From: an uncultured Massilia sp.
GTDB taxonomy: Bacteria > Pseudomonadota > Gammaproteobacteria > Burkholderiales > Burkholderiaceae_D
Assembly (NCBI GenBank): GCA_913778765.1
Contig: CAJYXO010000094.1
Coordinates: forward strand, 24,260 to 88,259
Direction of reading: 5' to 3'
Length of the DNA: 64,000 bases
The notes beneath the pieces are model-generated. The model saw only the letters and a program-made list of their open reading frames with translations, made no database searches and had not been told where the DNA came from. The position numbers and the translations under genes were made by a program. Below, piece by piece: positions 2,019 through 50,946 of this stretch. Positions within the stretch are counted from its first letter, which is position 1, and each line of letters starts with the position of its first letter.

Positions 2019-2027
2019 GAACAATCC

Positions 2028-5000: not shown

Positions 5001-7433
5001 GAATCCGAAGCCGTGCCGGAACCGGAGCCGGAGGCGGAACCCGACACCGCGCTCGAACTGCCGGCCGAGCCGGCGCCCGCTCCCGAACCCGAGCCGGCGC
5101 CCGAGCCCGCATTCGACGGCGCCGCCAGTTTCGACACCACCCTCGACGACGAACTCGCCGCCGCCGAATCCGTAGCCGCCGTGCTGGAAGCCGAAGCCGA
5201 ACCGGAACCGGTGCTGGCCGCCGAGCCGGTCTTCACCGACGAGCTGGACCCGGACCTGCTGCCGGTCTTCATGGAAGAAGCGGCCGACCTGCTGCCGCAG
5301 ATCGGCAAGGACCTGCGCCAGTGGCAGCAGGCGCCGGGCGAGCACGCCGTCGCCCATGGCCTGCTGCGCGCCCTGCACACCGTGAAGGGCAGCGCCCGCA
5401 TGGCCGGCGCGATGCGCCTGGGCCAGCACACGCATGCGCTGGAAACCCAGGTCGAGAACATGCTGCACGCCGGCACCACCAGCGCGGCGGCCTTCGACGA
5501 ACTGCTGGCCAACTACGACCAGGCGCTGCTGCTGTTCGAACAGCTGCAGCAGCCGGGCGGCCAGCCGGCGGCCCTGGCCCCGGCCGAGACGACCGGTACG
5601 CCGGCCGCGGCGCCATCGCAGGACCGGCGCCAGTCCGACGTGCGCGCGCCGCTGGTGCGGGTGCGCGCCGACATCCTCGACCGCATGGTCAACCAGGCCG
5701 GCGAGGTCTCGATCAGCCGGTCCAAGCTGGAGACCCAGGTCGGCTCGCTGAAGGCCTCGCTGGCCGATTTCTCGGACAACCTGGGGCGCCTGCGCCGCCA
5801 GTTGCGCGAGGTCGAGATGCAGGCCGAATCGCAGATCGCTTCGCGCCTGTCGATTGCCGGCGAACGCGAATTCGACCCGCTCGAATTCGACCGTTTCACG
5901 CGCCTGCAGGAACTGACCCGCATGATGGCCGAGAGCGTGAACGACGTCGCCTCCTTCCACGACGGCCTGTCGCGCACGGTGGAAGCCGCGGTCGAGGACC
6001 TGGCCGCGCAGTCGCGCCTGACGCGCGAGCTGCAGCGCGACCTGATGCGGGTGCGGATGGTGCCCTTCGCCAGCCTGTCCGAGCGCCTGTTCCGGGTCGC
6101 GCGCCAGACCGCCAAGGAGACCGACAAGCGCGTCAACCTGGACATCCGCGGCGGCGCCGTCGAGATCGACCGCGGCGTGCTGGAACGGATGGCGGCGCCT
6201 TTCGAACACCTGCTGCGCAACGCCATCGTGCACGGCGTCGAGCCGCGTGAGCGCCGCGCGGCGAACGGCAAGCCGGACACCGGCGAGCTGCTGGTTCAGG
6301 TCAGCCAGCAGGGCAACGAGGTGCAGATCCGCTTCGCCGACGACGGCGCCGGCCTGGACCTGGCGCGCATCCGCGCCAAGGCGCAAGCGAACGGCCTGCT
6401 CGATGCAAGCGGGCAGGTGAGCGATGCGGACGTGACCGACCTGATTTTCGAACCGGGCTTCTCGACCGCGGATGCGCTCACCGAACTGGCCGGCCGCGGC
6501 GTCGGCATGGACGTGGTGCGTTCCGAAGCGCGCGCCCTTGGCGGACGCGTGGAAGTGGTCAGCGAACCTGGCCGCGGCGCCGCCTTCACCATCCACCTGC
6601 CGCTGACCCTGGCCGTCAACCAGGTGGTGCTGGTGGCCAGCGGCCCGAAGACCTATGCCTTGCCGGCCAACCTGGTCGGGACGGTAGCGCAGGTGCGCGA
6701 CGGCGAACTGGCGGCCGCGCATGCGGCAGGCACGATCGCCGTGCAGGGCGAGCAGGTGGCGCTGCGCTATCTGCCGGACCTGTTGGGCGAGCCGGGCGCG
6801 GCCAGCGGCGCGCGTTCGTCGCCGGTGCTGGTGCTGGGCAGCGGCGCGAACCGTCTGGCGCTGCAGGTCGACGAAGTCCTGGGCAACCGCGAGGTCGTGC
6901 TGAAGAACGTCGGCCCGCAACTGGCGCGCATGCCCGGCATCGCCGGCGCCACCGTGCTGGGTTCGGGCGAGATCGTGCTGATCCTGAATCCGCTGCTGCT
7001 GCCGGCCCATGGCCAGCCACGACAGCGGGTACAGGCGGCAGCGCCGACGCAGGAAAGCCGGGGCGCCACCGTCATGGTGGTCGACGATTCGCTGACCGTG
7101 CGCCGCGTCAGCCAGCGCCTGCTGGAGCGCGAAGGCTACCGCGTGCTGCTGGCCAAGGACGGCGTCGAAGCGCTCGAACTGATGCAGGCGCCGGAGACGC
7201 GGCCCGACCTGATGCTGGTCGATATCGAGATGCCGCGCATGGACGGTTTCGACCTGACCCGCAACGTGCGCGGCAACGAGGCCACGAAGGACATCCCGAT
7301 CATCATGATCACCTCGCGCACCGCCGACAAGCACCGCAACCACGCGCTGGGCCTGGGTGTGAATGCCTACTTCGGCAAGCCCTTCCAGGAAGATGTGCTG
7401 CTGGCGGCGATCGCCGGCTTACTTGCCGCCTGA
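2028..7433 (+). CDS. pilL: Hybrid CheA-like histidine kinase/response regulator of the Pil-Chp system (PilL/ChpA type)
   Basis: 1801 residues. Histidine phosphotransfer sites are visible at H659 (HTLKGSGRM) and H1117 (HTVKGSARM). A third, degenerate site is at H821 (HTLGGT). An Ala/Pro/Glu-rich linker (about residues 940-1070) separates the domains. A CheA-type dimerisation and HATPase core follows (HLLRNAIVHGVEP about 1393-1406, DDGAGLD, GRGVGMDVV). A CheW-like domain spans about 1528-1661. A C-terminal receiver domain (about 1681-1801) has phospho-acceptor D1732 in LVDIEMPRMDG and the conserved Lys in FGKPF. It should autophosphorylate under PilJ control and pass phosphate to PilG/PilH-type regulators, which are not in this window. 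Its 3' end overlaps the convergent photolyase gene by 15 bases. Confidence 0.9.
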   Translation: MTQISPLPSSSSTAAAPFDTGPLSWVIGEIRDALERSAKALQDAAGRSPEAQPTLLLHAKTHLHQAHGALQMVDVEGVDRLTAAAEQALDRFKDGSPAVSGEHAETVAEAYRALVEYLEELLGGAAQQPVRLFPYYRALQELLGAERVHPGEMLVLNQGALSPPAFAGEESAAPDLAACRARFEKALLPFLKSGSVDAAGEMREALAPIARAQREARPYAFWLAMQTVADLAARGQLGSDIYLKQLLGQINLQLRRLVQGHTSLPEAMLRDALFFVAQASEATPDARLLRDAYGLDGQVPRDYLERRYGRIDREALKDAKEALAQTKEGWDRIASEGAPAQESEFDASLSKLAGASEKLGAPQLAQLLRELGDAARQAVTGGSSDQFSMEMAAAMLFVEHGLDQVRQLPEDFGQHAEAVGQRLLALAQGETPPEAPVWQGELARELQQGQTVAVLAGEIRTGLRQVEKLIDEYYENPARVDALEQADPLLHQLAGALSILDQDQAVRACSHVRERVRELAAGGVDEAARGAVLENLAQNVGALGFFIDALAQNVETARRRFRFDAGEGLFRELPFDAPAEPVAEPAPAAAMPAAAPAPLAAAEALPAEADGDAAIEAELLEIFIGEAQEVLAVVADTLPAAHANPDSQETLTRLRRSFHTLKGSGRMVGLEQFAHAAAAVEKTMNLWLAESRAATPDLLALLDRAHADLSAWVAELAAGARPARSGEPLADAAARVQEGGAFVMDEAPAPQDETALPPNVVAFPLAEGNLKRIGGLEIPLPLYNIYLGETDELLNVLARDFADWRADPLRAVSAQALKAAHTLGGTSATVGFHALREIAFALEEALQVAIPPLTEEQRLLLDDTVDRARIMRQVFSLGELAPAQPELLARLLALRDELGRKKADSVFEGADAELAQRLDALFAATYDSILADPPLPGGPLPVPETSALPAPGLRAAEPQPVDPAVAAVDDLFDSYFDDPFAAPSLEQAVAPESEAVPEPEPEAEPDTALELPAEPAPAPEPEPAPEPAFDGAASFDTTLDDELAAAESVAAVLEAEAEPEPVLAAEPVFTDELDPDLLPVFMEEAADLLPQIGKDLRQWQQAPGEHAVAHGLLRALHTVKGSARMAGAMRLGQHTHALETQVENMLHAGTTSAAAFDELLANYDQALLLFEQLQQPGGQPAALAPAETTGTPAAAPSQDRRQSDVRAPLVRVRADILDRMVNQAGEVSISRSKLETQVGSLKASLADFSDNLGRLRRQLREVEMQAESQIASRLSIAGEREFDPLEFDRFTRLQELTRMMAESVNDVASFHDGLSRTVEAAVEDLAAQSRLTRELQRDLMRVRMVPFASLSERLFRVARQTAKETDKRVNLDIRGGAVEIDRGVLERMAAPFEHLLRNAIVHGVEPRERRAANGKPDTGELLVQVSQQGNEVQIRFADDGAGLDLARIRAKAQANGLLDASGQVSDADVTDLIFEPGFSTADALTELAGRGVGMDVVRSEARALGGRVEVVSEPGRGAAFTIHLPLTLAVNQVVLVASGPKTYALPANLVGTVAQVRDGELAAAHAAGTIAVQGEQVALRYLPDLLGEPGAASGARSSPVLVLGSGANRLALQVDEVLGNREVVLKNVGPQLARMPGIAGATVLGSGEIVLILNPLLLPAHGQPRQRVQAAAPTQESRGATVMVVDDSLTVRRVSQRLLEREGYRVLLAKDGVEALELMQAPETRPDLMLVDIEMPRMDGFDLTRNVRGNEATKDIPIIMITSRTADKHRNHALGLGVNAYFGKPFQEDVLLAAIAGLLAA

Positions 7434-8864
7434 CGTGTCGCGCAAGGCGCCGAAGCGCGCCAGCGTCGCGGCGCGCGCCTGTTCGTGATCGACGATGGGA
7501 TGCGGGTAATCGCGTCCCAGCACCAGGCCGGCGCGCTCCAGCAGGGCCGGTTTCGCCAGCCACGGCGCATGGATCGCCGCGCCTTCCAGCTTGCCCAGTT
7601 GCGGCAGCCAGCGGCGGATGAAGGCGCCGTCGGGATCGAAGCGCTTCGATTGCGTGACCGGATTGAAGATGCGGAACCAGGGCTGGGCGTCGCAGCCGGT
7701 CGATGCCGCCCACTGCCAGCCGCCGTTGTTCGACGACAGCTCGTAGTCGTTCAGCTTTTCCGCAAAATAGCGTTCGCCGCGCAGCCACGCGATGCCGAGG
7801 TCCTTGGTCAGGAAGCTGGCCGTCACCATGCGCAAACGGTTGTGCATGAAACCGCTGCGGTTCAGCTGCGCCATCGCCGCATCGACCAGCGGATAACCGG
7901 TGCGGCCTTCGCACCAGGCGGCGAAGGCTTCGTCGGCCCGCGCGCCTTCTTCCCACACCACCTTGTCGAACGCGGCCTTGAAGGACTGCGTCACCACGCG
8001 CGGGTGGCGCTGCAGGATCATCATGTAGAACTCGCGCCAGATCAGTTCCGACAGCCAGGTCCTGGCGCCGTCGCCGGTTTTATCGGTCAGCAGCCGCACC
8101 AGGCGCCTGACCGACAGCGTGCCGAAGCGCAGGTGCACCGACAGCCGCGAGGTGCTGTCGAGCGCCGGGAAGTCACGCTGCACGTGGTAGGCGTCGATGT
8201 GCTGCAGGAAGGCGTCCAGCAATTGCCGGGCGCCGTGCATGCCGGCCGGTTCGACCGGTTCCGGATGGGGCGCGAAGCCCAGTTCTTCCAGCGCGGGTAG
8301 ACGATGCCCGGCGGGCGCTTTGGCCAGCGCGCCGGCCCAGGCTTCGGTCTCGAAGGGCTTCAGCGCTTCCGGATGCGCCGCCAGCCGCTTCAGCCAGGCA
8401 TTCTTGTAGGGTGTGAACACGGAAAAGGGGCCGCCGGCCTGGGTCAGCACCTCGTCCTTTTCGAAGACCACCTGGTCCTTGAAGGTCTGCAGGCTGCGGC
8501 CGTCTTCTCGCAGGCGCCGCTGGACTTCGCGGTCGCGGGCGATGGCGGCCGGTTCGTAGTCGTGGTTGGCGAATACCGATTCCGCATCCAGTTCGGCTGC
8601 CAGCTTCACGATCTCGTCTGCGGCGCGCCCATGGCGCACGATCAGGTAAGCTCCCCATGCACGCAGGCGGGCGTCGAGCTCGGCCAGGCTGGCATGGATG
8701 AACTGCACGCGGCGGTCGTCGCGCGGCAGGGCGGCCAGGATGTCGGTGTCGAATACGAAGACGCAAAAGACCTTGCTCGATCCGCGGAGCGCATGATGCA
8801 GCGCAGCATGGTCGTCGAACCGCAGGTCACGCCGGAACCAGACGATAGAGTTACTTAGAGCCAT
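7419..8864 (-). CDS. phrB: Deoxyribodipyrimidine photolyase (CPD photolyase, class I)
   Basis: 481 residues from the ATG at 8864, chosen because the protein then begins MALSNSIVWFRRDLRFDDHAAL, the usual family start, and a purine-rich GAAGAA lies just upstream. An in-frame start 12 codons earlier is possible. The N-terminal Rossmann-like domain binds the antenna cofactor. The C-terminal FAD domain carries TGYPLVDAAMAQLN, GFMHNRLRM, and an NNGGWQWAASTGCDAQPWFRIFNP-like stretch that forms the flavin and substrate pocket. It repairs UV-induced cyclobutane pyrimidine dimers using blue light. It is transcribed alone, divergently from yqgE, and converges on the pilL-like kinase gene. Confidence 0.93.
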   Translation of the reverse strand: MALSNSIVWFRRDLRFDDHAALHHALRGSSKVFCVFVFDTDILAALPRDDRRVQFIHASLAELDARLRAWGAYLIVRHGRAADEIVKLAAELDAESVFANHDYEPAAIARDREVQRRLREDGRSLQTFKDQVVFEKDEVLTQAGGPFSVFTPYKNAWLKRLAAHPEALKPFETEAWAGALAKAPAGHRLPALEELGFAPHPEPVEPAGMHGARQLLDAFLQHIDAYHVQRDFPALDSTSRLSVHLRFGTLSVRRLVRLLTDKTGDGARTWLSELIWREFYMMILQRHPRVVTQSFKAAFDKVVWEEGARADEAFAAWCEGRTGYPLVDAAMAQLNRSGFMHNRLRMVTASFLTKDLGIAWLRGERYFAEKLNDYELSSNNGGWQWAASTGCDAQPWFRIFNPVTQSKRFDPDGAFIRRWLPQLGKLEGAAIHAPWLAKPALLERAGLVLGRDYPHPIVDHEQARAATLARFGALRDTSGGK

Positions 8865-41286: not shown

Positions 41287-41318
41287 AAACGGCGGACAGC
41301 GATGTCCGCCGTTTTTTT
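41287..41318. terminator. Strong intrinsic terminator after the FtsH-like gene
   Basis: AACGGCGGACA-GCGA-TGTCCGCCGTT followed by seven T is a textbook rho-independent terminator on the plus strand. It lies at the convergent stop of the FUSC gene and its reverse side may also help end that transcript. Confidence 0.9.
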
Positions 41319-43392
41319 ATGGCTTGCCGGGGTCCGGCAGTTCGTCGCGGACCGCGCGCAGGATGGCGTCCGTCTGCGCCAGCCAGCGTGCCGCGAGCTG
41401 CATCGGCATCGCGTCCGGGCCGCCGTGCGGGACTTCCGGCATCGGCATTGCCGGCAGCGGCGCCTGTGGCTCGTCGCGCCGTTCCGGCGAGGCCAGTGCG
41501 TCGGCCGTGGCGTCCAGCCGGGCTGCGAGCTCGCCGGCCGCATCGCGCAACGGCGACGCCTGCGCCAGCGCGCGCGCGTCGACGATCGCCAGCGCGCAGG
41601 CGTGACGCACGCAGTAGGCGATGCGTTCCAGCCGCGCCAGGTGCTGGCGGCGATTCTCCTTCGATCCCGGATAGGCGCCGCCGGTGACCGGGCCAAGCGC
41701 CCGGCGCAGGGCCTGCAGCTTGCGGTCCAGTGCCCGTACCGCCGCGTGCTGTTCCTTGTCCGCTTGCGGTTCGATCCAGGCCGCGCGCAGCAGCTTGCCT
41801 GCCGCCCTCAATAGATCGGCGCTCCTGCTGCCGGATTCGTCGCGGGTATGCGCCGGGAACACGAAGCGCGCGGCGAGGATGGCGCTGGCGGCGCCGATCG
41901 CGGTTTCCTCCAGCCGCAGCACCAGCAGGCCCTCGCTGTCCATACCCATCAATTCGTACAGCATCGCCAGCATGGCGCTCAGCAGCACCGTGTAGGCGTT
42001 CTGCAGGCCGTGAAAGGCATAGAAGCCGGCGGCGACGAAGGCGAACAGCAGCGCCAGTTCGACGTTGCGGCTGCCGTTCACCAGCGCCGCCGCGGCGATG
42101 CCCACGCCGACGCCGCCGACTGTCGCCAGCACCTGGCGCCACGCGCCCGACAGCGTCTGTCCGACCGTCGACGCGCGCGTGAACACGACGAAGGCCGCGA
42201 ACACGGCCCAGAACCAGTGATCCGGCGACAGCGCGCGACCCGCCAGCAGGGCGCCCAGCGCCGCCGCGCAGGCCTGCAGGGCGCGCCGCGTGGTGTCGTC
42301 CGGCCAGTGCTTGTCCTTCGGCGTGGGCGGCGCGGGCGAGGTGGATGGCGGCGGCTTGCGCTCGTCGCGCATGGCGGGCAAGGCGTCGCGCAGGGAGGGG
42401 AGGGCCGCCAGAACCTCGAGCGCCCGGCGCAGGCGCCAGCGCATGGCTTCGGGCAGCGACTCCGGCATCGATTCGGACAGTGATCCGGGCAGCGCGCCGC
42501 CGGCGGGATCGGCCGCGCGGTCCCTGCCGGTATGCTGCGCCAGCGCCCGCAGGCCGGCCGCGAATCGTGTGCGCTCCGGGGGCCTGGCGTCGCCGGCGGC
42601 GCGCACGGCCGCGCCAGCGGTCTCGGTGGCGAGTTCGCCGCGCAGCACCTGCCGGCGCAGGCCGCGGGCGGCGCCATCTTCCGGCTCGGCGGCGAAGTCG
42701 GCCAGGCGCGATTCGAGGCCGAGCGACTGGCCGTTCAGCGCGGCCAGTTGGGCGTCGATGCGCTGCTGCGCCTTCGGGCCGCCATGTTCCAGCATGCCTG
42801 CCAAGTCGGTCAGCAATGCGGCGATGCGTGCGCGCCAGGCGCGCAGTTCGCTGTGCAGCATGCGGCCGGGATGTTCCGGCACCACCCAGAACCGGATCAG
42901 GAAGGCGATGGCGCAGCCGGCGAACACGAACAGCAGATTCCACAGCGCCTGCGGCGGCGGCACTTTCAGCAGCAGGGCGTAGAAGAAGGACTGGTAGGCG
43001 ATCGTGCCGAGACCGCCGGCGCGCGGCCCGAGGCGGCGCACCTGGAAGGCCGCGAAAATGATGAGCAGGAAGCAGCCGCCGCTCCGCCACGGGTTTTCGC
43101 GCACCAGGCTGCCCAGCACCAGCATCGCGCTGGCGATCACCGGCACCCAGGCCATCGTCACCTGCTGCTGCCGGCGGCCGGCGTCGGGCAGGGCGACGGC
43201 GGCGATCATCGGCACCACGATCCCGCCCAGCGACAGCTCGTATTCGAGACCCAGCAGGCGAGTCAGGAGCAGAAAGGCGGCGGCGCAGGCGCCCGCCGTC
43301 AGCAATGCGCGCAGGCCGCCGCGCAGCCGCTCGAGCGCCGGGTCGGAGGCGAGCAGGCGTTCGGTCAGGTAGGCGGCACGGTCACGGAGCAT
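41317..43392 (-). CDS. FUSC family inner-membrane protein (YccS/aromatic acid exporter type)
   Basis: 691 residues from the ATG at 43392; an in-frame TTG at 43440 is an alternative. Two sets of membrane segments are visible, one near the N-terminus (ALLTAGACAAAFLLLTRLLGLEYELSLGGIVVPMIAAVALP...) and one around residues 390-520 (ALQACAAALGALLAGRALSPDHWFWAVFAAFVVFTRASTVGQTLSGAWRQVLATVGGVGVGIAAAALV), each followed by a long soluble stretch. This two-half plan is the FUSC pattern. Possible role: export of aromatic acids or similar compounds. It follows the ABC transporter gene by about 96 bases but has no clear link to it. Confidence 0.85.
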   Translation of the reverse strand: MLRDRAAYLTERLLASDPALERLRGGLRALLTAGACAAAFLLLTRLLGLEYELSLGGIVVPMIAAVALPDAGRRQQQVTMAWVPVIASAMLVLGSLVRENPWRSGGCFLLIIFAAFQVRRLGPRAGGLGTIAYQSFFYALLLKVPPPQALWNLLFVFAGCAIAFLIRFWVVPEHPGRMLHSELRAWRARIAALLTDLAGMLEHGGPKAQQRIDAQLAALNGQSLGLESRLADFAAEPEDGAARGLRRQVLRGELATETAGAAVRAAGDARPPERTRFAAGLRALAQHTGRDRAADPAGGALPGSLSESMPESLPEAMRWRLRRALEVLAALPSLRDALPAMRDERKPPPSTSPAPPTPKDKHWPDDTTRRALQACAAALGALLAGRALSPDHWFWAVFAAFVVFTRASTVGQTLSGAWRQVLATVGGVGVGIAAAALVNGSRNVELALLFAFVAAGFYAFHGLQNAYTVLLSAMLAMLYELMGMDSEGLLVLRLEETAIGAASAILAARFVFPAHTRDESGSRSADLLRAAGKLLRAAWIEPQADKEQHAAVRALDRKLQALRRALGPVTGGAYPGSKENRRQHLARLERIAYCVRHACALAIVDARALAQASPLRDAAGELAARLDATADALASPERRDEPQAPLPAMPMPEVPHGGPDAMPMQLAARWLAQTDAILRAVRDELPDPGKP

Positions 43393-43488
43393 GGCGGCGC
43401 GGCGGGATATCTCGACAGTGGTGGAACGGCCACTGTACAAGATGGCGGCAAGGGGCTACGCACGCCTGCGCTCGGCGCCGGACCCGGC

Positions 43489-45243
43489 TCAGGCCGCCGT
43501 CAGCGTACCGTACTGGGCCAGCTGGTGCCGCATCAATTCCGCATACGGACCGTTTTCCTCGCGCATCAGCGCCGCATGGCTGCCTTGCTGGCAGATCCGG
43601 CCCTGGTCGACGACCAGGATCCGGTCGGCCTTGACGATGGTCGACAGACGGTGGGCGATGATCATCGTGGTTCGCCCCTGCATCAGGTTGTCCAGGGCGG
43701 CCTGGACCAAGGTTTCGCTGGCTGCGTCCAGGGCGCTGGTCGCTTCGTCGAGGATCAGGATCCTCGGGTCGCGCAGCAAGGCCCGGGCGATGGCGATACG
43801 CTGCTTCTGTCCGCCGGACAGCTGCATGCCGCGTTCCCCGACGACGGTTTCGTAGCCGTTCGGGAAGGCCGCGATGAAATCGTGGGCCTGGGCGCGGCGT
43901 GCGGCTGCCTCGACCTCGGCAAAGGCGACATCGCGTTCCGGAACGGCAAACCGGATGTTGTCCGCGATCGTGCCCGAGAACAGGGAGGGTTCCTGCTCCA
44001 CCACGGCAACCTGGCGCCGGATCGAGGCCGTACCGAGGCCGGCGGCGTCGAGATCGTCATACAGGATCCGGCCCGCATCCGGCGCGTAATGACCGAGGAT
44101 GAGGTTGGCAATGGTCGATTTGCCCGCGCCCGATGGGCCGACCACCGCCACCGTCTCGCCGGCGGTCACGCTCAGGCTCACGCCATCGAGCGCCGCATGG
44201 GCAGGCCGCTGGGGATAACGGAAACTGACCGCGTCGAAGCGGATGCGTCCCGACAGCGCCAGTGGCTGGGCGTCGTCGTCCAGCCGGGCTTCGAGGCGCA
44301 GCATGTCGAAGATGCGGTCGGTGGCGCCCAGGGTGCGCATCCAGCTGCTCCAGAATTCAGCGAGCGAGGTGGCCGATTCGGTCACCATGCTGGCGTAGAT
44401 GATGAAGGCGGTCAGTTCACCCACCGACAGCTGGCCCTGGCCGATCAGCCAGGCGCCGAAGCAGAGGGTGCTCAGCAGCGCCAGGTAGAGCAGCAGCGAC
44501 AGCGTGCCCTGGAATGTCGACAGCAGCCGCGCATTCGACAGGGCGGCATCGAGTGCGCGCGCGGTGGCTTGACGATAGCGGGCGCTGGCGCCCTGCTGCT
44601 GGTTGAACGCATGCACCAGCCGCACGTTCGCAAAATGCTCTTGCGCCACCTTGCCGCTTTCCGCCAGGCTGGACTGCACCTCGCGGGCGCGCAGGCGATA
44701 GCTGGTTCCCGAGCGCTTGCCAATGTAGAGGCTGGCGGGCACGAACAGCGCCAGGGGCAGGCTCAGCAGCGGAGACAGCGACAGCAGCATGGCGACGCCG
44801 CCGCTGAACAGGCAGAGCGCGCGCAGCACGTTGGCGGCGCCGACGGTCAGGCTTTCATGCAGGGCCATCACGTCTGCCTGCAGGCGGCTGGTCAGCTCGC
44901 CGACATGGTGCTGGTCGAAAAACCCGATCGGCTGGCGGATCAGGATATCGAACAGCTGCCGCCGCAGGCGGGTGACGATGCCTTGGCTCGCTGACTGGAA
45001 CAGGTAGTAGCGCAGGGCGGATACGGTGGCCAGCAGAAGTGCGGCGCCCAGCATGGCCAGAATCATCCAGGGGGGAATGCCGTGGCGCTGCAGCTGCGCA
45101 GCGTGGTCGATGAAGTAGGCGATCGCGCGCGGGAAGCCGAGCTGGATCAGGACCCCGGCGCCCATGCACAGCAAGGCCGCGGCGACACGTCCGGCGACCG
45201 GGCGCAGGAGACGGAGACGTTCCAGATGGGGCGACGGCTTCAT
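43489..45243 (-). CDS. ABC exporter (transmembrane plus ATPase domain) of a RiPP-like cluster
   Basis: 584 residues from the ATG at 45243, which overlaps the stop of the upstream thioredoxin-fold gene (ATGA). About six membrane helices in residues 20-310 are followed by an ATPase domain: Walker A GPSGAGKSTIANLIL (about 367), signature LSGGQKQRIAIA (about 471), Walker B ILILDEATSALD. The half-transporter should work as a homodimer. There is no N-terminal C39 peptidase or other extra domain, so leader cleavage needs another protein; the serine protease two genes upstream is a candidate. It most likely exports the modified peptides encoded at 48238-49056. Confidence 0.87.
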   Translation of the reverse strand: MKPSPHLERLRLLRPVAGRVAAALLCMGAGVLIQLGFPRAIAYFIDHAAQLQRHGIPPWMILAMLGAALLLATVSALRYYLFQSASQGIVTRLRRQLFDILIRQPIGFFDQHHVGELTSRLQADVMALHESLTVGAANVLRALCLFSGGVAMLLSLSPLLSLPLALFVPASLYIGKRSGTSYRLRAREVQSSLAESGKVAQEHFANVRLVHAFNQQQGASARYRQATARALDAALSNARLLSTFQGTLSLLLYLALLSTLCFGAWLIGQGQLSVGELTAFIIYASMVTESATSLAEFWSSWMRTLGATDRIFDMLRLEARLDDDAQPLALSGRIRFDAVSFRYPQRPAHAALDGVSLSVTAGETVAVVGPSGAGKSTIANLILGHYAPDAGRILYDDLDAAGLGTASIRRQVAVVEQEPSLFSGTIADNIRFAVPERDVAFAEVEAAARRAQAHDFIAAFPNGYETVVGERGMQLSGGQKQRIAIARALLRDPRILILDEATSALDAASETLVQAALDNLMQGRTTMIIAHRLSTIVKADRILVVDQGRICQQGSHAALMREENGPYAELMRHQLAQYGTLTAA

Positions 45244-45797
45244 GCGGCGGTTTCCTCTTCGGTCCCGCTGTGGGCCAGCTGCGCGCGCAGCTGCAGCCAG
45301 TTGTCGTCGCCGATCAGGCCAGTCGCTTCGATGACTCCCTGGTGGTCGACGAACATGTAGGCCGGCGAGGCGAAGCGGGGATTCAGTCTTTTGTAATCCT
45401 CGGTGACCACCTGGTGGGCGGCGGCGGCGAGCGGCGTGCCGGCCAGGAAGCGGCGCAGGCGGAACCACGGTTCGATGCTGACGATGCGCATCTCCAGGCC
45501 GGCGGCGGTGGCGGCCGGCAGCATGGCGGCGACTTCCGGCAGGTGGGCCCGGCACTTGTCGCACCTGCTGGACAGGAACAGCAAGGCGCAGGCCTGGCCC
45601 TCGGGCAGCAGCGGCTGGCGGGACCGCGTGCCGAGCCGGCGCGACAGCATCGGCGGCGCCGGGTCGCCGGCAACGGGGGCCGCCGGGACATCGTGCTGCA
45701 TGCGCTGGCGCCGCAGCACCGCCAGGCTCAGATGCAGGTTCAGGGCCATGCCGAAAGCGAGAAAGGCCAGCGTCGTAAGGAGTATCTGGCGGTCCAT
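45240..45797 (-). CDS. Membrane-anchored thioredoxin-fold protein (MauD/TlpA-like)
   Basis: 185 residues. One N-terminal membrane segment (ILLTTLAFLAFGMALNLHLSLAVL) is followed by a periplasmic domain with CALLFLSSRCDKCRAHLPEV; CDKC (residues 79-82) is the CxxC redox centre. It starts one base inside the stop of the MauE-like gene and its end overlaps the ABC transporter start by four bases. MauD/MauE-type pairs are known partners in periplasmic disulfide bond formation. Here it probably oxidises or isomerises the two invariant cysteines of the exported peptide. Confidence 0.8.
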   Translation of the reverse strand: MDRQILLTTLAFLAFGMALNLHLSLAVLRRQRMQHDVPAAPVAGDPAPPMLSRRLGTRSRQPLLPEGQACALLFLSSRCDKCRAHLPEVAAMLPAATAAGLEMRIVSIEPWFRLRRFLAGTPLAAAAHQVVTEDYKRLNPRFASPAYMFVDHQGVIEATGLIGDDNWLQLRAQLAHSGTEEETAA

Positions 45798-46309
45798 CAA
45801 TGGGTCCTCGCGAGGACGACGACGTCGTGGAAATGGATAGCCGCGACACACAGCCAGGCGCCAAGGCCGGCGGCCAGCAGCGATTCTCCGGCGGGGAGGT
45901 GTACCGCGGGAGCGAAGGCCAGCCAGGCGGCGACGGACAGCAGCACCAGCACGTTGCGCAGCACGTCGTAGCCGGACAGCGGACGCAGGGACTTGCCGAA
46001 GCAGCTGCAGCGTACGATGGCGCGGGTGAAGAACTGGTAGCCCAGCACGCTGGTGAAGGCGCACATCAGCACGAGCGAAGCGAGCATGCCGGCGGGCGGC
46101 GCGATGCCGAGCGCCAGCGCCGCGGCCAGCAGCTCGGCCAGGATCAGCGCCGGCGCCAGCAGCGCGGCCGGCCGCGCGGCGATGCCGAGCAGCGCCCTCA
46201 GGTCGTCGCGAAAATGCGGCCAGTCGCGCAGCTTGCCGGCAAGCGCGGCGAGCCACCACCAGCCGATGAAATAGCGGACGATGTCCGCCATGAAGGAAGC
46301 GGTGTTCAT
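45797..46309 (-). CDS. MauE/DoxX-like integral membrane protein
   Basis: 170 residues from the ATG at 46309, overlapping the stop of the protease gene (ATGA). About four membrane segments are seen (VRYFIGWWWLAALAGKL, LLAPALILAELLAAALALG, MLASLVLMCAFTSVLGYQFF, VLRNVLVLLSVAAWLAFAP). The motif RCSCFGKSL (residues 100-108) is the Cys-x-Cys-Phe-Gly typical of MauE-like proteins. It probably works as the electron channel for the adjacent CxxC protein. The name is by family resemblance, and no methylamine genes are nearby. Confidence 0.78.
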   Translation of the reverse strand: MNTASFMADIVRYFIGWWWLAALAGKLRDWPHFRDDLRALLGIAARPAALLAPALILAELLAAALALGIAPPAGMLASLVLMCAFTSVLGYQFFTRAIVRCSCFGKSLRPLSGYDVLRNVLVLLSVAAWLAFAPAVHLPAGESLLAAGLGAWLCVAAIHFHDVVVLARTH

Positions 46310-47187
46310 TCGTCGGCGTCGTCCACCCATGCCGGCGCCAGCGCCGCCGCATGCCGGCGCCGCAGGCGCACGCCGGCGCGCGTGGCGAGCAGGGCGTCGA
46401 ACCAGGGCTGCTGTTCCGACGCGCGCTGCGCGCCGCCGACCCTGGACTGCAGCAGCGTCGAGATGGGCCATGCCAGCATCTCGGTCATCTCGTCGCGCCG
46501 GGCCGGCAATCCGAGCGCGGCGAGCTCGTCGCCGGTGATCGCGTAGTTGTGCGAGTGATAGCCGGCCATCAGCTTGCGCACCAGGTTCCTGTGGGCGTCG
46601 GCCTCGTCGCCGGCCGCGGACCTCCGGCGCCGGGAAGCCAGCAGCTCGAGGGCGATCTGCTCGATTTCGAGGTTGGCCCGGTAGAACGCGGTGAGCGAAG
46701 GTGGAAAGATGCTATTGCACAGGAGGGCCAGCGATTCCGTGCGCGCCCTTTCCTGATCGAGCCCGAACCAGGACGCGGCCATGTCGCCGAACAGCTTGAT
46801 GTCGAGGCCACTGAACGTGGCGCCGTCGGTGCCGCCCAGCTGCGGATCGATCGGAGAAAACAGCGCCAGCTCGCCAGCGACGATCTCGTCCGCGCACAGG
46901 GTGAGCAGGGTGGCCGACGACTGGCAATGGAAGGGGACGATGAAGGCCAGGTGCTCGGCGTGGGCGCGCAGCAGCAGGGCGATGCGGCGCGCGGCATTGA
47001 CGATGCCGCCACGTCCGTGCAGCACCACGTCCAGGCGCTTGGCGGGGCCGAGCATCCGGCATTCTTCATACAGGGCCGGCAAGAGTTCGATGTCGAGGTT
47101 GGAAGCGGCCAGCACCAGTACCCGGCTGCCGCGCGCGCGCTCGAGCGTCTCGATGTGCTTGCGCAGGGTGGCGTCTAGGGTTGACAT
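46306..47187 (-). CDS. SDH/ClpP-fold serine protease, candidate leader peptidase
   Basis: 293 residues. The Clp/crotonase fold of the serine dehydrogenase-proteinase family is indicated by VVLHGRGGIVNAARRIALLLR (oxyanion loop near residues 57-61), FHCQSSATLLTLCADEIVAGEL (nucleophile candidate S90 or S91) and SPIDPQLGG (111-119). No signal peptide is visible, so it acts in the cytoplasm. It starts 13 bases before the end of the ATP-grasp gene. Since the ABC exporter has no peptidase domain, this enzyme is a good candidate for cutting the leader from the peptides. That role is inferred from position. Confidence 0.72.
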   Translation of the reverse strand: MSTLDATLRKHIETLERARGSRVLVLAASNLDIELLPALYEECRMLGPAKRLDVVLHGRGGIVNAARRIALLLRAHAEHLAFIVPFHCQSSATLLTLCADEIVAGELALFSPIDPQLGGTDGATFSGLDIKLFGDMAASWFGLDQERARTESLALLCNSIFPPSLTAFYRANLEIEQIALELLASRRRRSAAGDEADAHRNLVRKLMAGYHSHNYAITGDELAALGLPARRDEMTEMLAWPISTLLQSRVGGAQRASEQQPWFDALLATRAGVRLRRRHAAALAPAWVDDADE

Positions 47188-48182
47188 GCGGCCCCCGCGA
47201 TCAGTTGGTCGGCGACTGCGTCGAGCAGCCTGTATTCAGGGATCAGCTGTTCGACATACAGGAATTGCCCGCACGGGTTATTCTCGAGGAAGACATGGTC
47301 GCCGGAAGGCGTCACGATCAAGTCGATCGCCCCGTATTCCAGGCCGTAGCTGCGCACGAACTCGACGCAGCGTTGCTCCACGTCGAGCGGCAGGCGTGTC
47401 GCCTCATAACGGATCTCGGCCGACATGTCGCGCGAATCGATCATGGTGCGCGGATCGTCCTGCGAATGGATCTTGGCGGCGAACACGCGCCGGCCGATGA
47501 TGGTGACGCGCAGTTCATACTGCTTCGGCACATATTCCTGGAAGTGGCAGGGCAATTCGTCGACGGCGTCCAGCTGGTCGAGCATGCCGTCGTCGACCAG
47601 CACGGTACGCAGGGCGCCGGTGGTGCGTTGTTCCGGCGCCAGGGTTTCGGCGCCCAGATAGGGACTGGACAGCGTCTTGAAGATTTTCCGGCCGTCGATC
47701 GACTGCAGGAAGCGGCGCGCCTCGTCGGCCGAATTCGTGACGATCGAGGCGGGTATCCGGAAGCCGAAGCGCGCGGCGCGCTTGAGCTGCTCGCCCTTCC
47801 ACTGCGCGCCGCGCAGCACGCGCGGATGGCTCATCCAGTAGCAGTCGAGGTTGTACAGCAGGCCGAACATCGCTTGCTCGGTCTCGAGCTTGGCGAAGGC
47901 GCGTTCCTGCGGCCCGAGCTCGGCGCTGCGATAAGAAAATTCCGCCGCCTTGCGCAGCCAGACGGCGCCGACGCTGCCGAGGTCGAGACAGCTGTCGTCG
48001 GACAATCGACGGATGCGCTGGCTGGCGCCGCCGGTATCGAACAGCTGGGCGAACTGGTAATCGCGGGGAAAGGCATCGAGGTCGATGCGAAAGGTCCGGC
48101 ACCCCTTGGAGGCCAGGATCGGGACGATCAGGTCGGCGTGGAGATCGGCACTGTTGGTGACGATCAGGATCGTGTGGTTCAT
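47175..48182 (-). CDS. MvdC/MvdD-like ATP-grasp peptide ligase (graspetide synthetase type)
   Basis: 335 residues from the ATG at 48182. The N-terminus MNHTILIVTNSADLHADLIVPIL and the block GAVWLRKAAEF are characteristic of microviridin-type ligases; the ATP-grasp core has HFQEYVPKQYELRVTIIGRRVFAAKI (214-236) and D287 plus FLENNPCGQFLYVEQL (299-312), which supply the metal and nucleotide contacts. Such enzymes bond Ser/Thr hydroxyls or Lys amines to Asp/Glu carboxyls in a precursor peptide. Three candidate precursors lie immediately upstream. The ribosome binding site is weak and a terminator precedes the gene, so it should be made at a lower level than the peptides. Confidence 0.87.
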   Translation of the reverse strand: MNHTILIVTNSADLHADLIVPILASKGCRTFRIDLDAFPRDYQFAQLFDTGGASQRIRRLSDDSCLDLGSVGAVWLRKAAEFSYRSAELGPQERAFAKLETEQAMFGLLYNLDCYWMSHPRVLRGAQWKGEQLKRAARFGFRIPASIVTNSADEARRFLQSIDGRKIFKTLSSPYLGAETLAPEQRTTGALRTVLVDDGMLDQLDAVDELPCHFQEYVPKQYELRVTIIGRRVFAAKIHSQDDPRTMIDSRDMSAEIRYEATRLPLDVEQRCVEFVRSYGLEYGAIDLIVTPSGDHVFLENNPCGQFLYVEQLIPEYRLLDAVADQLIAGAACQP

Positions 48183-48197
48183 TCGTCGCGTGTAAAG

Positions 48198-48226
48198 AAA
48201 AAAGCCTTGCGTCGGCAAGGCTTTTC
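48198..48226 (-). terminator. Read-through terminator between precursor 1 and the ATP-grasp gene
   Basis: AAGCCTTGC (48202-48210), a four-base loop and GCAAGGCTT (48215-48223) form a perfect hairpin. On the minus strand, the transcript leaving precursor 1 runs into this hairpin followed by TTTTTTCTTT, so most transcripts should end here and only some continue to the enzyme genes. The stem is identical to the one at 48816-48846 with a different loop. Confidence 0.85.
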
Positions 48227-48237
48227 GTTCTGAAAAC

Positions 48238-48429
48238 TCAGCAGTAATCGCCGGAGTCGGAACCGTTGACACTGCTCCAGCGGAGCGGCGCGCCTTCTTC
48301 GTCCAGGACCGTGCAGCCGGCCACGGAGACGCCTTCGCGCACCTTCCAGACAGGCGCCGGGCTGGCATTCTTGCCGCGCTGCTCGGCTAGCTGGAAAGCG
48401 AATGACTTGGCTTGTTTCTGGTTTTGCAT
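48238..48429 (-). CDS. RiPP-like precursor peptide 1
   Basis: 63 residues from the ATG at 48429, preceded by GAAGGA. It aligns without gaps to precursors 2 and 3. Invariant features are the leader FAF-x-LA (residues 10-15), W28, VAGC (36-39), a Ser/Thr at 40, a hydroxyl pair (S52-S53 here) and the ending D58-x-G-x-Y-C63. In this copy the middle variable part is VLDEEGAPLRW. A Cys at 39 and one at 63 are invariant. It likely is a substrate of the ATP-grasp ligase encoded just downstream. It has no clear promoter of its own and is probably co-transcribed with precursor 2. Confidence 0.85.
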   Translation of the reverse strand: MQNQKQAKSFAFQLAEQRGKNASPAPVWKVREGVSVAGCTVLDEEGAPLRWSSVNGSDSGDYC

Positions 48430-48490
48430 TGCTTGATCCTTCTGTACATGTTCAGGATGAAACTGCACGTGGCAGAGCGCCAGCCTGGGT

Positions 48491-48682
48491 TCAGCAGTAG
48501 AACCCGCTGTCAGGACCGCCCCAGGTCGTCGCCATTTTCCACTCCCCGTCGATGCCGGTGTCCGTGCAGCCCGCGACGGAGACGCCGTCACGGACTTTCC
48601 ATTGCGGCGCCGGCTTGGCGTCCTGTTGCTGGTTTCCGGCGAGTTTGAAGGCGAACAGCTTGACGTCGTTTTGATTCTGCAT
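48491..48682 (-). CDS. RiPP-like precursor peptide 2
   Basis: 63 residues; ribosome binding site AAAGGATCAGG. The leader-like half is MQNQNDVKLFAFKLAGNQQQ and the conserved block GVSVAGCT (33-40). The variable segment is DTGIDGEWKMA, then T52-T53 and GGPDSGFYC at the end. Its promoter has a perfect -35 (see 48745-48773). It lies 61 bases upstream of precursor 1 and shares similar 5' sequence with it, indicating gene duplication. Confidence 0.85.
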   Translation of the reverse strand: MQNQNDVKLFAFKLAGNQQQDAKPAPQWKVRDGVSVAGCTDTGIDGEWKMATTWGGPDSGFYC

Positions 48683-48744
48683 TTCCTGATCCTTTCATTG
48701 TGTTAAGGAGGAGACTGCACGCAGCTGGATATTGCTGCAAATCA

Positions 48745-48773
48745 ATACTATGATTGCATCATGAACATGTCAA
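48745..48773 (-). promoter_or_regulatory. Sigma-70 promoter of precursor 2
   Basis: TTGACA (48773-48768) with a 17-base spacer and TAGTAT (48750-48745), the best promoter match seen in the window. It drives precursors 2 and 1 and, through the terminator, the enzyme genes. The promoter of precursor 3 has the same architecture. Confidence 0.85.
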
Positions 48774-48815
48774 TATAATTTCTTATATGCAACATGAATA
48801 CGGCGATGCAGGGAA

Positions 48816-48846
48816 CAAAAAAGCCTTGCGAGTGCAAGGCTTTTTG
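48816..48846 (-). terminator. Terminator after precursor 3
   Basis: AAGCCTTGC-GAGT-GCAAGGC with A-rich and T-rich arms around it. On the minus strand it stops the transcript of precursor 3 before the promoter of precursor 2. The stem equals that at 48198-48226. Confidence 0.85.
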
Positions 48847-48864
48847 GCGGTTCAAGGCAAAGGA

Positions 48865-49056
48865 TCAGCAGTAGATGCCGGCGTCGGCGGTACCGAAGGT
48901 GCTGGCATAGCGGTAATTTTCGGTGGCATCCGGGCCCGAGCAGCCTGCCACCGCGACGCCTTCGCGGACTTGCCACTGCTGGGCCGGCTTGGCTTCTTCC
49001 TGGGCTTTTTCAGCAAGCTTGAAGGCAAACAGTTGCGCTTGTTTCTGGTTATGCAT
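48865..49056 (-). CDS. RiPP-like precursor peptide 3
   Basis: 63 residues; ribosome binding site AAAGGAACC. Leader MHNQKQAQLFAFKLAEKAQE, then GVAVAGCS (33-40). The variable segment is GPDATENYRYA, followed by S52-T53 and GTADAGIYC. Here the residue before the conserved Gly near the end is Ala instead of Ser. It has its own promoter and terminator, so it is an independent transcript. It lies 119 bases downstream of the antiporter gene on the same strand. Confidence 0.85.
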   Translation of the reverse strand: MHNQKQAQLFAFKLAEKAQEEAKPAQQWQVREGVAVAGCSGPDATENYRYASTFGTADAGIYC

Positions 49057-49119
49057 TTCGGTTCCTTTCGTTAATTGTTAAAAACGAACCTGCAATACGT
49101 CATAAATGGACGCGAGGGA

Positions 49120-49148
49120 ATGCTAGACCGGAAAGCAATGACCGTCAA
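49120..49148 (-). promoter_or_regulatory. Sigma-70 promoter of precursor 3
   Basis: TTGACG (49148-49143), 17-base spacer, TAGCAT (49125-49120). The predicted transcript would start near 49113, leaving about 55 bases of leader before the peptide. It matches the promoter of precursor 2 in spacing and -10 form. Confidence 0.8.
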
Positions 49149-49174
49149 TACATTTTCTTTTTTGAAACCCACGC

Positions 49175-50887
49175 TCAGTGCGCCGCCGGCGCCTTCGCCA
49201 GTCCGGCCAGCACATGGCGGCTCATGCTGGCCGCCAGTTCGTGTTCGCCGATGAGGACGTCGCCGCCGGTTTCTTCCCGCAGCAGGTGCGCCTCTTCCTC
49301 GTTATGGCTGCGCACCACGCAGCGGATCGCCGGGTTCAGGGCCTTGGCCGTTTCGACCATGGCGCGCACGTGGAAGGTGTCCGGCGTGGCGATCACCAGC
49401 ATCGAGGCGCGCGCGATGTGGGCCTGGATCAGCACCGCCGGATCGGCCGCGTTGCCGGCCACCGCCGGCTGGTCCTGGCGGCGCAGTTCTTCGACCATCT
49501 CGCGGTTCTGCTCCGCCACCACGTAGTGCACACCCTGTGCGCGCAGGTCCTGGGCGATGCGCTTGCCGACGCGGCCGTAGCCGACCAGGACCACCTGACC
49601 GGTCAGGTGCTCGTGCGTGACCGTCATCGGCAGCTCGGCCAGCGGGTCGGCCGAACGTTCCAGCGAGCGCGCCAGGTCCGACTTCGAACGCAGCCACTCC
49701 TGCAGCGGATTGATGGCCTTGAACATCAGCGGGTTCACGGCGATCGAGATGATGGCGCCGGCCAGGATCAGGTTCTGGCCCAGGTCCGGCAGCAGGCCCA
49801 GCGACATGCCGAGCGCCGCCAGGATGAATGAGAATTCGCCGATCTGCGCCAGGCTGGCCGAGACCGTGATGGCGGTGTTCAGCGGATAGCGCAGCGCCAG
49901 CACCAGCACGAAGGCCGCCAGCGATTTGCCGAACAAAACGATGGCGACCACGCCCAGCAGTTCGAGCGGATGCTCGACCAGCACGCGCGGGTCGAACAGC
50001 ATGCCGACCGAGACGAAGAACAGCACCGAGAACGCGTCGCGCAGCGGCAGGGTCTCTTCGGCCGCGCGGTGGCTCAGCGCCGATTCGCGCAGCACCATGC
50101 CGGCAAAGAAGGCGCCCAGCGCGAACGACACGCCGAACAGGTGCGACGAGCCATAGGCGATGCCGACCGCGGCGGCGATCACGGCCAGCGTGAACAGCTC
50201 GCGCGAATTGGTCTTGGCCACGCGCCACAGGAACCAGGGGAAGAGCTTGCGGCCGACGATCAGCATGAAGGCGACGAAGGCGCCCACCGACAGCAGGGTC
50301 TTGCCGAGCGCCAGCCACAGCGAATCGCCGGCGCCATGGCCGTCGCCGCCCGCATTGCCGCCCAGTGGACCGGCCAGCGCCGGCAGCAGCACCAGCACCA
50401 GCACCGTCACCAGGTCCTCGACCACCAGCCAGCCGACCGCGATGCGGCCGTTGAAGGAATCGAGCTGGCCGCGGTCCTCCAGCGCCCGCAGCAGCACCAC
50501 CGTGCTCGCCACCGACAGCGCCAGGCCGAACACCAGGCCGGCGCCCAGGCTCCAGCCCCACAGGTGACTGAGGCCGATGCCCATCAGCGTGGCCACCGCG
50601 ATCTGCAGCACCGCGCCGGGCAGGGCGATGCCCTTCACTTCCATCAGGTCGTCGAGCGAGAAGTGCAGGCCGACCCCGAACATCAGCAGCATCACGCCGA
50701 TCTCGGCCAGCTGGGAGGCCAGCGCCACGTCGGCGACGAAGCCCGGCGTGGCCGGGCCGATGAGCACACCGGCGGCGAGATAGCCGACCAGAGCGGGCAG
50801 GCGCAGGCGTACGGCGAGCATGCCGAACAGCAAGCCAAACCCGAGGGCGGCGGCGATGGTGGTGATCAGGCTGATGTTGTGGTGCAT
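49175..50887 (-). CDS. CPA2-family monovalent cation:proton antiporter with RCK domain (YbaL/KefB type)
   Basis: 570 residues from the ATG at 50887, preceded by GGAGGG. About twelve membrane helices (ALGFGLLFGMLAVRLRLPALVGYLAAGVLIGP onwards; SVASTVVLLRALEDRG) are followed by a TrkA-N type nucleotide-binding domain with GQVVLVGYGRVGKRIAQDL and a C-terminal regulatory part. It likely exchanges K or Na for protons and is gated by a ligand on the RCK domain. A YbaL-like assignment is preferred over KefB because no quinone-reductase (KefF/G) partner is present. Confidence 0.88.
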   Translation of the reverse strand: MHHNISLITTIAAALGFGLLFGMLAVRLRLPALVGYLAAGVLIGPATPGFVADVALASQLAEIGVMLLMFGVGLHFSLDDLMEVKGIALPGAVLQIAVATLMGIGLSHLWGWSLGAGLVFGLALSVASTVVLLRALEDRGQLDSFNGRIAVGWLVVEDLVTVLVLVLLPALAGPLGGNAGGDGHGAGDSLWLALGKTLLSVGAFVAFMLIVGRKLFPWFLWRVAKTNSRELFTLAVIAAAVGIAYGSSHLFGVSFALGAFFAGMVLRESALSHRAAEETLPLRDAFSVLFFVSVGMLFDPRVLVEHPLELLGVVAIVLFGKSLAAFVLVLALRYPLNTAITVSASLAQIGEFSFILAALGMSLGLLPDLGQNLILAGAIISIAVNPLMFKAINPLQEWLRSKSDLARSLERSADPLAELPMTVTHEHLTGQVVLVGYGRVGKRIAQDLRAQGVHYVVAEQNREMVEELRRQDQPAVAGNAADPAVLIQAHIARASMLVIATPDTFHVRAMVETAKALNPAIRCVVRSHNEEEAHLLREETGGDVLIGEHELAASMSRHVLAGLAKAPAAH

Positions 50888-50946
50888 GCGGACAGGGCCC
50901 TCCTTCAATAGATGAACCGGTCCAGTATAAAGCACGAACGTGACGA

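Follow-up and report, generated by a model that had tools for sequence, protein, structure and literature searches.

A graspetide-type gene cluster from Massilia with a candidate ClpP-fold leader protease and a likely disulfide-forming pair

Introduction

Two features of graspetide precursors set the background for the locus described here: a Pro-hydrophobic leader motif, Phhx(1,2)h, occurs in about half of them, and conserved cysteines have already been reported for many families (PMC8939145). The enzyme that removes the leader is a weaker point; a known leader protease is lacking in many graspetide clusters (PMC13039773), hence the interest of any candidate, such as the ClpP-fold protein found here. 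Elsewhere among ribosomally synthesized and post-translationally modified peptides (RiPPs), enzymes for cysteine pairs have been described or proposed: the TMcin pathway includes an oxidoreductase dedicated to a single conserved disulfide (PMC13252029), and in the decRiPPter families of Streptomyces a MauE gene (in one family also MauD) lies beside Cys-rich candidate precursors, with a speculated role in disulfide formation (PMC7794033). The subject of this report is a gene cluster in a 64,000-nucleotide stretch (the window) of contig CAJYXO010000094.1 from an uncultured Massilia sp.: three precursor peptide genes, then genes for an ATP-grasp ligase of MvdC/MvdD type, an SDH-type serine protease, a MauE-like membrane protein, a thioredoxin-like protein and an ATP-binding cassette (ABC) exporter.

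The reading favoured here, at a probability of roughly 0.6, is that of a graspetide-type cluster. In its product an ester would join core residue 2, Ser or Thr, to Asp in a DxG motif near the C-terminus, and the loop around this ester would likely be closed by a disulfide linking the two end cysteines; the SDH protease would cut the leader and the ABC exporter would release the peptide. The combination of a ClpP-fold protease with a likely disulfide pair in one graspetide-type cluster is likely new, as it was not found described: no graspetide cluster with SDH and MauE/thioredoxin genes appears in the passages covered of PMC13097080, PMC8939145, PMC9576775, PMC10885120 and PMC7794033, nor in those of PMC13252029, PMC13418204, PMC13003496, PMC13039773 and PMC12291112, and a graspetide with a dedicated disulfide step is likewise not described in the literature passages covered.

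Precursor peptides and the core rule

In the window the three peptides are each 63 residues long and align without gaps, as the initial annotation had described, with C39, D58, G60 and C63 at identical positions in all three. The same plan recurs in related loci, whose selection is given in the next section. Counting same-strand open reading frames (ORFs) with FAF and AGC[ST], plus one precursor of locus L005 added by hand, gave 88 precursors in 35 loci and 63 distinct cores; L010 was left out because both its precursors are broken across frames, and L013 because none of this type lies on the ligase strand. (In the two L010 precursors, at 7300-8001 in Shewanella sp. HN-41, the reading frame changes near an A run, which may reflect an assembly error.) All 88 leaders contain FAF, mostly as LFAFKLA, together with a W-K-x-R-[DE]-G-V stretch that closes with Ala-Gly. 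Every one of the 63 cores has Cys at position 1, directly after this Ala-Gly, Ser or Thr at position 2 and [DE]-x-G-x-x-Cys at the end, with exactly two cysteines; a single Ala follows the last Cys in five. Two further features are nearly constant: an Arg, in 61 of 63, and an aromatic residue ahead of the last Cys, in 58. Same-strand ORFs bearing the leader without the AGC[ST] start were absent from the counted loci.

The acid of the [DE]xG motif is Asp in 62 cores and Glu in one Kangiella peptide. An ester would be favoured over an amide, because two cores have one acid only and 50 of the 63 have no Lys; the exchange of Asp for Glu in Kangiella is the substitution expected of an ester donor. 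The conserved residues thus predict one Ser/Thr-to-Asp ester nested within an end-to-end disulfide. The presence of several variable cores per locus suggests a product used in competition or signalling.

The rule also holds for most precursors listed from the protein database. Of 746 found there, 120 were listed and 119 of these follow it, the single exception being P0218, with Cys at position 2. A search for divergent forms brought 32 newly listed proteins (P0242-P0273). Among these are 22 two-Cys precursors; 20 obey the rule, while P0262 and P0271 each depart from it at one position. Precursors of a Chloroflexota type have 4, 6 or 8 cysteines, an even number in eight of eight, these eight representing about four sequence types and so not eight independent cases. 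Such relatives, with FAF leader and 4-8 Cys, lie at L122 (12802-14179) and L013 (12779-13036); three FAF-leader Cys-rich ORFs stand near the thioredoxin gene of L122, and no precursor of this Cys-rich kind was observed in L121. The leader is also kept in a precursor from a Deinococcus plasmid and in one relative, both with no Cys in the precursor proper. Precursor arrays within one cluster, upstream of the ligase gene, reach nine genes in L002, nine in L003 and ten in L049.

The ligase and the fixed module

The ligase matches Pfam ATPgraspMvdD (PF21068) at 3e-12, and its best relatives in the PDB are CdnC (2e-44) and 5ig9 (7e-39), with 5ig8 also among them; the last two are listed as ATP grasp ligases, and are presumably MdnC and MdnB, respectively. 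The search against graspetide families that the initial annotation had proposed was divided in its outcome: the score exceeds the cut-off for PF21068 (47 bits against 27) and falls below those of four curated NCBIfam ligase families, MvdC (171/425 bits), MvdD (205/475), GRASP_SAV_5884 (224/350) and grasp-with-spasm (83/230). A ligase of MvdC/MvdD type adjoins the precursor genes, the leader motif is conserved, and so are Ser/Thr/Lys and Asp/Glu residues in the core; on these sequence grounds, assignment to the graspetide-type systems is well supported. The leader motif is mostly LFAFKLA, preceded by Pro only in L015-like members.

The loci compared number 37: 15 from species-genome contigs and 24 from family genomes (reached through close ligases in 294 genomes of the cluster's own family), less three duplicates (L048, the same as L001; L067, as L014; L071, as L005), plus the window. 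All have ligases at least 40% identical and were chosen by ligase, not by neighbouring genes. They come from Oxalobacteraceae, Rheinheimera, Kangiella, Luteimonas, Shewanella, Pseudoalteromonas, Pyxidicoccus (Myxococcota) and a Chloroflexota metagenome-assembled genome (MAG), three phyla in all. Genes for ligase, SDH, MauE and thioredoxin-like protein occur together in 37 of 37, so the co-occurrence of the first three, which the initial annotation had proposed to check, is borne out; the refuting outcome it named, a lack of homologous clusters with conserved peptides in related genomes, did not occur. Because related genomes repeat the same gene order, the locus is not a chance arrangement. 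The exporter gene is present in 36, on the opposite strand in L013 and split in L068, where it is broken into two frames (1252-3049); none lies in the stretch fetched for the Pyxidicoccus locus L012. Within the family, SDH at E < 1e-130 occurs in exactly those 25 of 294 genomes that hold a close ligase, a patchy spread, and nowhere else at that level; five further genomes have weak relatives (5.8e-31 at best).

More distant ligases serve as controls. Of 37 loci fetched for this purpose, L121 (ligase 41% identical) and L122 (32%), from the same Chloroflexota MAG as L013, both carry SDH, MauE and thioredoxin genes and were counted with the module loci; in the remaining 35 (Myxococcota, Chloroflexota, and the cluster's own class and family), several of them short stretches of 4.5-8.7 kilobases, neither SDH nor MauE was found, and one has a weak thioredoxin match. 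In a tree of 85 ligases, from which the Deinococcus plasmid ligase was left out, a branch with support 100/98 sets apart every one of the 39 ligases that come with the module, L122 being long-branched. A single origin of the ligase/SDH/MauE/thioredoxin module is the simplest reading. The Deinococcus plasmid itself, pDrdI (L135, 6675-7888), carries a truncated ligase (39%), a Cys-free precursor with LFAF leader and an adjoining transposase-like gene; no SDH, MauE or thioredoxin gene lies near this locus, which is disrupted beside the transposase-like gene.

The strongest competing view, held here at somewhat less than even odds, takes the cluster for an ordinary member of a numbered graspetide group (Lee/Ramesh/Carter), for example group 9. 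Over half of the group 9 clusters hold 'a serine proteinase' (Carter 2026, PMC13097080), which might be the SDH gene; group 9 core motifs are, however, placed with those of groups 8 and 11, and the ligases are called an actinobacterial branch (PMC8939145). The main texts of both papers, moreover, make no mention of thioredoxin, Clp or Shewanella, nor, among terms looked for in one of them alone, does PMC8939145 mention SDH or DoxX, or PMC13097080 disulfide or cysteine. Part of the Massilia-type cluster family may already have a group number; the number would leave the disulfide and protease steps undescribed.

Leader cleavage and export

The SDH protein matches PF01972 at 1.6e-17 (63.9 bits, cut-off 31.3); its score for NCBIfam NF047768, 80.3, falls short of the 250 set for that family. 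Its S90, G60, G61, D114 and H213 are invariant in 37 homologues, some of them presumably catalytic to judge from the fold, and hydropathy gives no membrane segment in 36 of 37. The exporter matches ABC_membrane and ABC_tran without a C39 peptidase domain, as first annotated. Pfam finds no C39 domain in the exporters of the four SDH clusters scanned (window, L121, L122 and L013) and finds one in five of seven control exporters (ten control loci have an ABC match; L103, L105 and L114 were left out of the scan). Exporters outside the scan were judged C39-free by length only: 34 of the 36 have 582-632 amino acids, L015 has 545 and the split L068 has 391.

It would be the SDH protein, then, that cuts the leader after Ala-Gly. 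The gene might instead encode a self-protection factor or a duplicated target, with a house-keeping protease removing the leader as the peptide is exported or afterwards. For groups such as group 9, self-resistance has been suggested as the role of the proteins encoded alongside (Carter 2026, PMC13097080), and many graspetide clusters do without a recognisable protease (PMC13039773); yet here the gene is present in 37 of 37 loci, it follows the ligase gene directly and the two overlap in the window, the scanned exporters beside it have no C39 domain, and its Ser, Gly-Gly and His are invariant, as would be expected of an active enzyme. The alternative is rated unlikely.

The cysteine pair

The MauE-like protein matches PF07291 (4e-22; 79.3 bits against a cut-off of 27) and its partner matches AhpC-TSA (PF00578; 9e-7); the CxC of the first and the CxxC of the second are invariant. 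In the Pyxidicoccus locus L012 (9883-10869) the MauE and thioredoxin-like domains form one fused protein. To judge from these conserved residues, the pair likely joins the two end cysteines of the core in a disulfide.

Membrane topology speaks against the simple picture, in which the thioredoxin-like domain was expected to be periplasmic. Around the anchor of this protein the N-terminal flank is mostly acidic and the C-terminal flank basic; by net charge, 31 of 37 homologues favour a cytoplasmic thioredoxin domain and one a periplasmic domain, with five ties. A cytoplasmic position leaves room for a reducing role of the pair. The first loop of MauE is basic (mean +3.3/-1.2), while the CxC loop, on the same side, is neutral (+2.6/-2.9). 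These are rough counts: positive-inside is a rule of thumb, and the control consisted of two proteins. If the topology holds, oxidation would take place on the cytoplasmic face before export, and this would explain why the cluster has a pair of its own instead of relying on periplasmic enzymes.

That the pair keeps the cysteines reduced or feeds some other Cys chemistry, giving a product with free thiols, metal or another sulfur linkage, is less probable again than the self-protection account: a cytoplasmic thioredoxin domain would suit it, and conserved cysteines of other graspetide precursors have been viewed as possible thioether donors for radical S-adenosylmethionine (SAM) enzymes (PMC8939145), but Cys numbers are even (2; 4, 6, 8; P0218 excepted), none of the five enzyme genes encodes a radical SAM enzyme, MauE has been speculated to aid disulfide formation in methylamine dehydrogenase, and MauE/MauD genes occur in candidate RiPP clusters whose precursors have at least eight Cys (both PMC7794033).

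The pathway drawn in the initial annotation, a graspetide with cut, oxidation and export of its own, is well supported by comparison, through the co-occurrence, the crosslink residues, the paired cysteines and the peptidase-free exporter. The disulfide step in it keeps its footing in the conserved cysteines and MauE/CxxC genes; its timing may differ, as the bond had been placed after export and the charge counts suggest before. A bolder version, in which a distinct graspetide family ranging from Oxalobacteraceae to Myxococcota and Chloroflexota has its ester-locked loop capped through the end residues by a cytoplasmic-face disulfide before export, with the ClpP-fold protein as dedicated leader peptidase, is tentative and, taken as a whole, rather doubtful.

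Locus layout and neighbourhood

All cluster features lie on the reverse strand and span 43489-49056 (Table 1). The five genes downstream of the peptides match Pfam families as first described and do overlap, by 13, 4, 1 and 4 nucleotides in turn. AAGGA precedes the start of every peptide gene in the window. The two terminator-like hairpins, near-identical to each other and each with a T run, were found by script and are absent from the listing of the consensus scan that gave the promoter-like sites. Because peptides 1 and 2 each have a promoter-like site in front and a hairpin separates their genes, the two may be transcribed separately; the layout would also fit production of peptides in excess over enzymes.

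Table 1. Features of the cluster, in window positions
Feature	Positions	Strand	Remarks
Precursor peptide 1	48865..49056	-	63 aa (amino acids); LFAFKLA in leader; core C39-C63 at 48868-48942
Precursor peptide 2	48491..48682	-	63 aa; core 48494-48568
Precursor peptide 3	48238..48429	-	63 aa; core 48241-48315
ATP-grasp ligase, MvdC/MvdD type	47175..48182	-	335 aa; Pfam PF21068 and PDB relatives
SDH-type ClpP-fold serine protease	46306..47187	-	293 aa; PF01972; invariant G60 G61 S90 D114 H213
MauE-like membrane protein	45797..46309	-	170 aa; PF07291; invariant C101-x-C103-F-G
Thioredoxin-like protein	45240..45797	-	185 aa; PF00578; N-terminal membrane anchor 5-23; invariant C79-x-x-C82
ABC exporter	43489..45243	-	584 aa; ABC_membrane and ABC_tran; no C39 peptidase domain
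Intrinsic-terminator-like hairpin 3' of peptide 1	48818..48844	-	12-base-pair stem, T run on - strand; script
Intrinsic-terminator-like hairpin, peptide 3/ligase interval	48199..48225	-	T run; script
Promoter-like site upstream of peptide 1	49120..49148	-	consensus match only
Promoter-like site upstream of peptide 2	48745..48773	-	consensus match only

The neighbouring genes are taken to be of kef type (49175-50935) and FUSC type (41317-43440), names given by the look of the sequence rather than by a family search. Here 5,737 nucleotides, including the cluster, separate them (43441-49174 from gene to gene). Matches to the two are adjacent in five genomes of the same genus, with 29-183 nucleotides between them; the cluster was therefore gained or lost as one cassette.

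A working scheme

On the favoured reading the LFAFKLA leader motif would recruit the ATP-grasp ligase, which would install one ester per peptide, as the conserved residues and the homology to CdnC and the microviridin ligases suggest. The MauE/thioredoxin-like pair would oxidise both end cysteines at the membrane, more likely at its cytoplasmic face; the soluble ClpP-fold SDH protein would cut after Ala-Gly, these two steps in either order, leaving a peptide of 17-27 residues with Cys first and last (a few with an extra Ala). The peptidase-free exporter, by its family, would then release it.

The simplicity of the core rule, C-[ST]-x(n)-[DE]-x-G-x-x-C, and the fixed ligase/protease/MauE-thioredoxin set make this chemistry easy to test. 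Three ideas can be tested directly: that a ClpP-fold enzyme serves as leader peptidase, that the disulfide forms, possibly on the reducing side of the membrane, and that rings of about 17-27 residues provide a scaffold with a widely varying loop, of which some strains offer 9-10 natural variants per locus.

Comparison with described systems

Among RiPP pathways at large, TMcin differs in having a DsbA-like enzyme (TmcD) and an intramembrane protease, with no ATP-grasp step in the passages covered (PMC13252029). The decRiPPter MauE/MauD families differ in precursors with at least eight Cys, and SDH is not mentioned in that text; the ATP-grasp enzymes of the decRiPPter candidates, which the passages do not place in these families, are called not directly similar to known graspetide ligases (PMC7794033).

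Closer in shape are the graspimiditides (fuscimiditide and amycolimiditide; group 13), stem-loops with nested crosslinks around a variable loop (PMC12291112); the fuscimiditide precursor also has Cys, its disulfide formation having been designed away (PMC13003496). The product predicted here differs in pairing an ester rung with a disulfide rung, and no isoaspartyl methyltransferase is encoded among the five enzyme genes.

With SDH-type proteases (PF01972) and ClpP the protease shares the Pfam match, the predicted fold and the invariant Gly-Gly, Ser and His; it departs from the SDH type in having no membrane segment in 36 of 37 homologues, in falling below the NF047768 cut-off and in its fixed partnership with a RiPP ligase.

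Nearest in enzymology are the microviridins and chryseoviridin (MdnB/MdnC, AMdnB and CdnC), which share a homologous ATP-grasp ligase, an aromatic hydrophobic leader motif and the expectation of a side-chain ester. The microviridin core motif PSD occurs in none of the 63 cores. Where those products form a cage, the Massilia-type peptides are predicted to have one ester and have two invariant end cysteines, and their clusters add SDH, MauE and thioredoxin genes to an exporter without C39.

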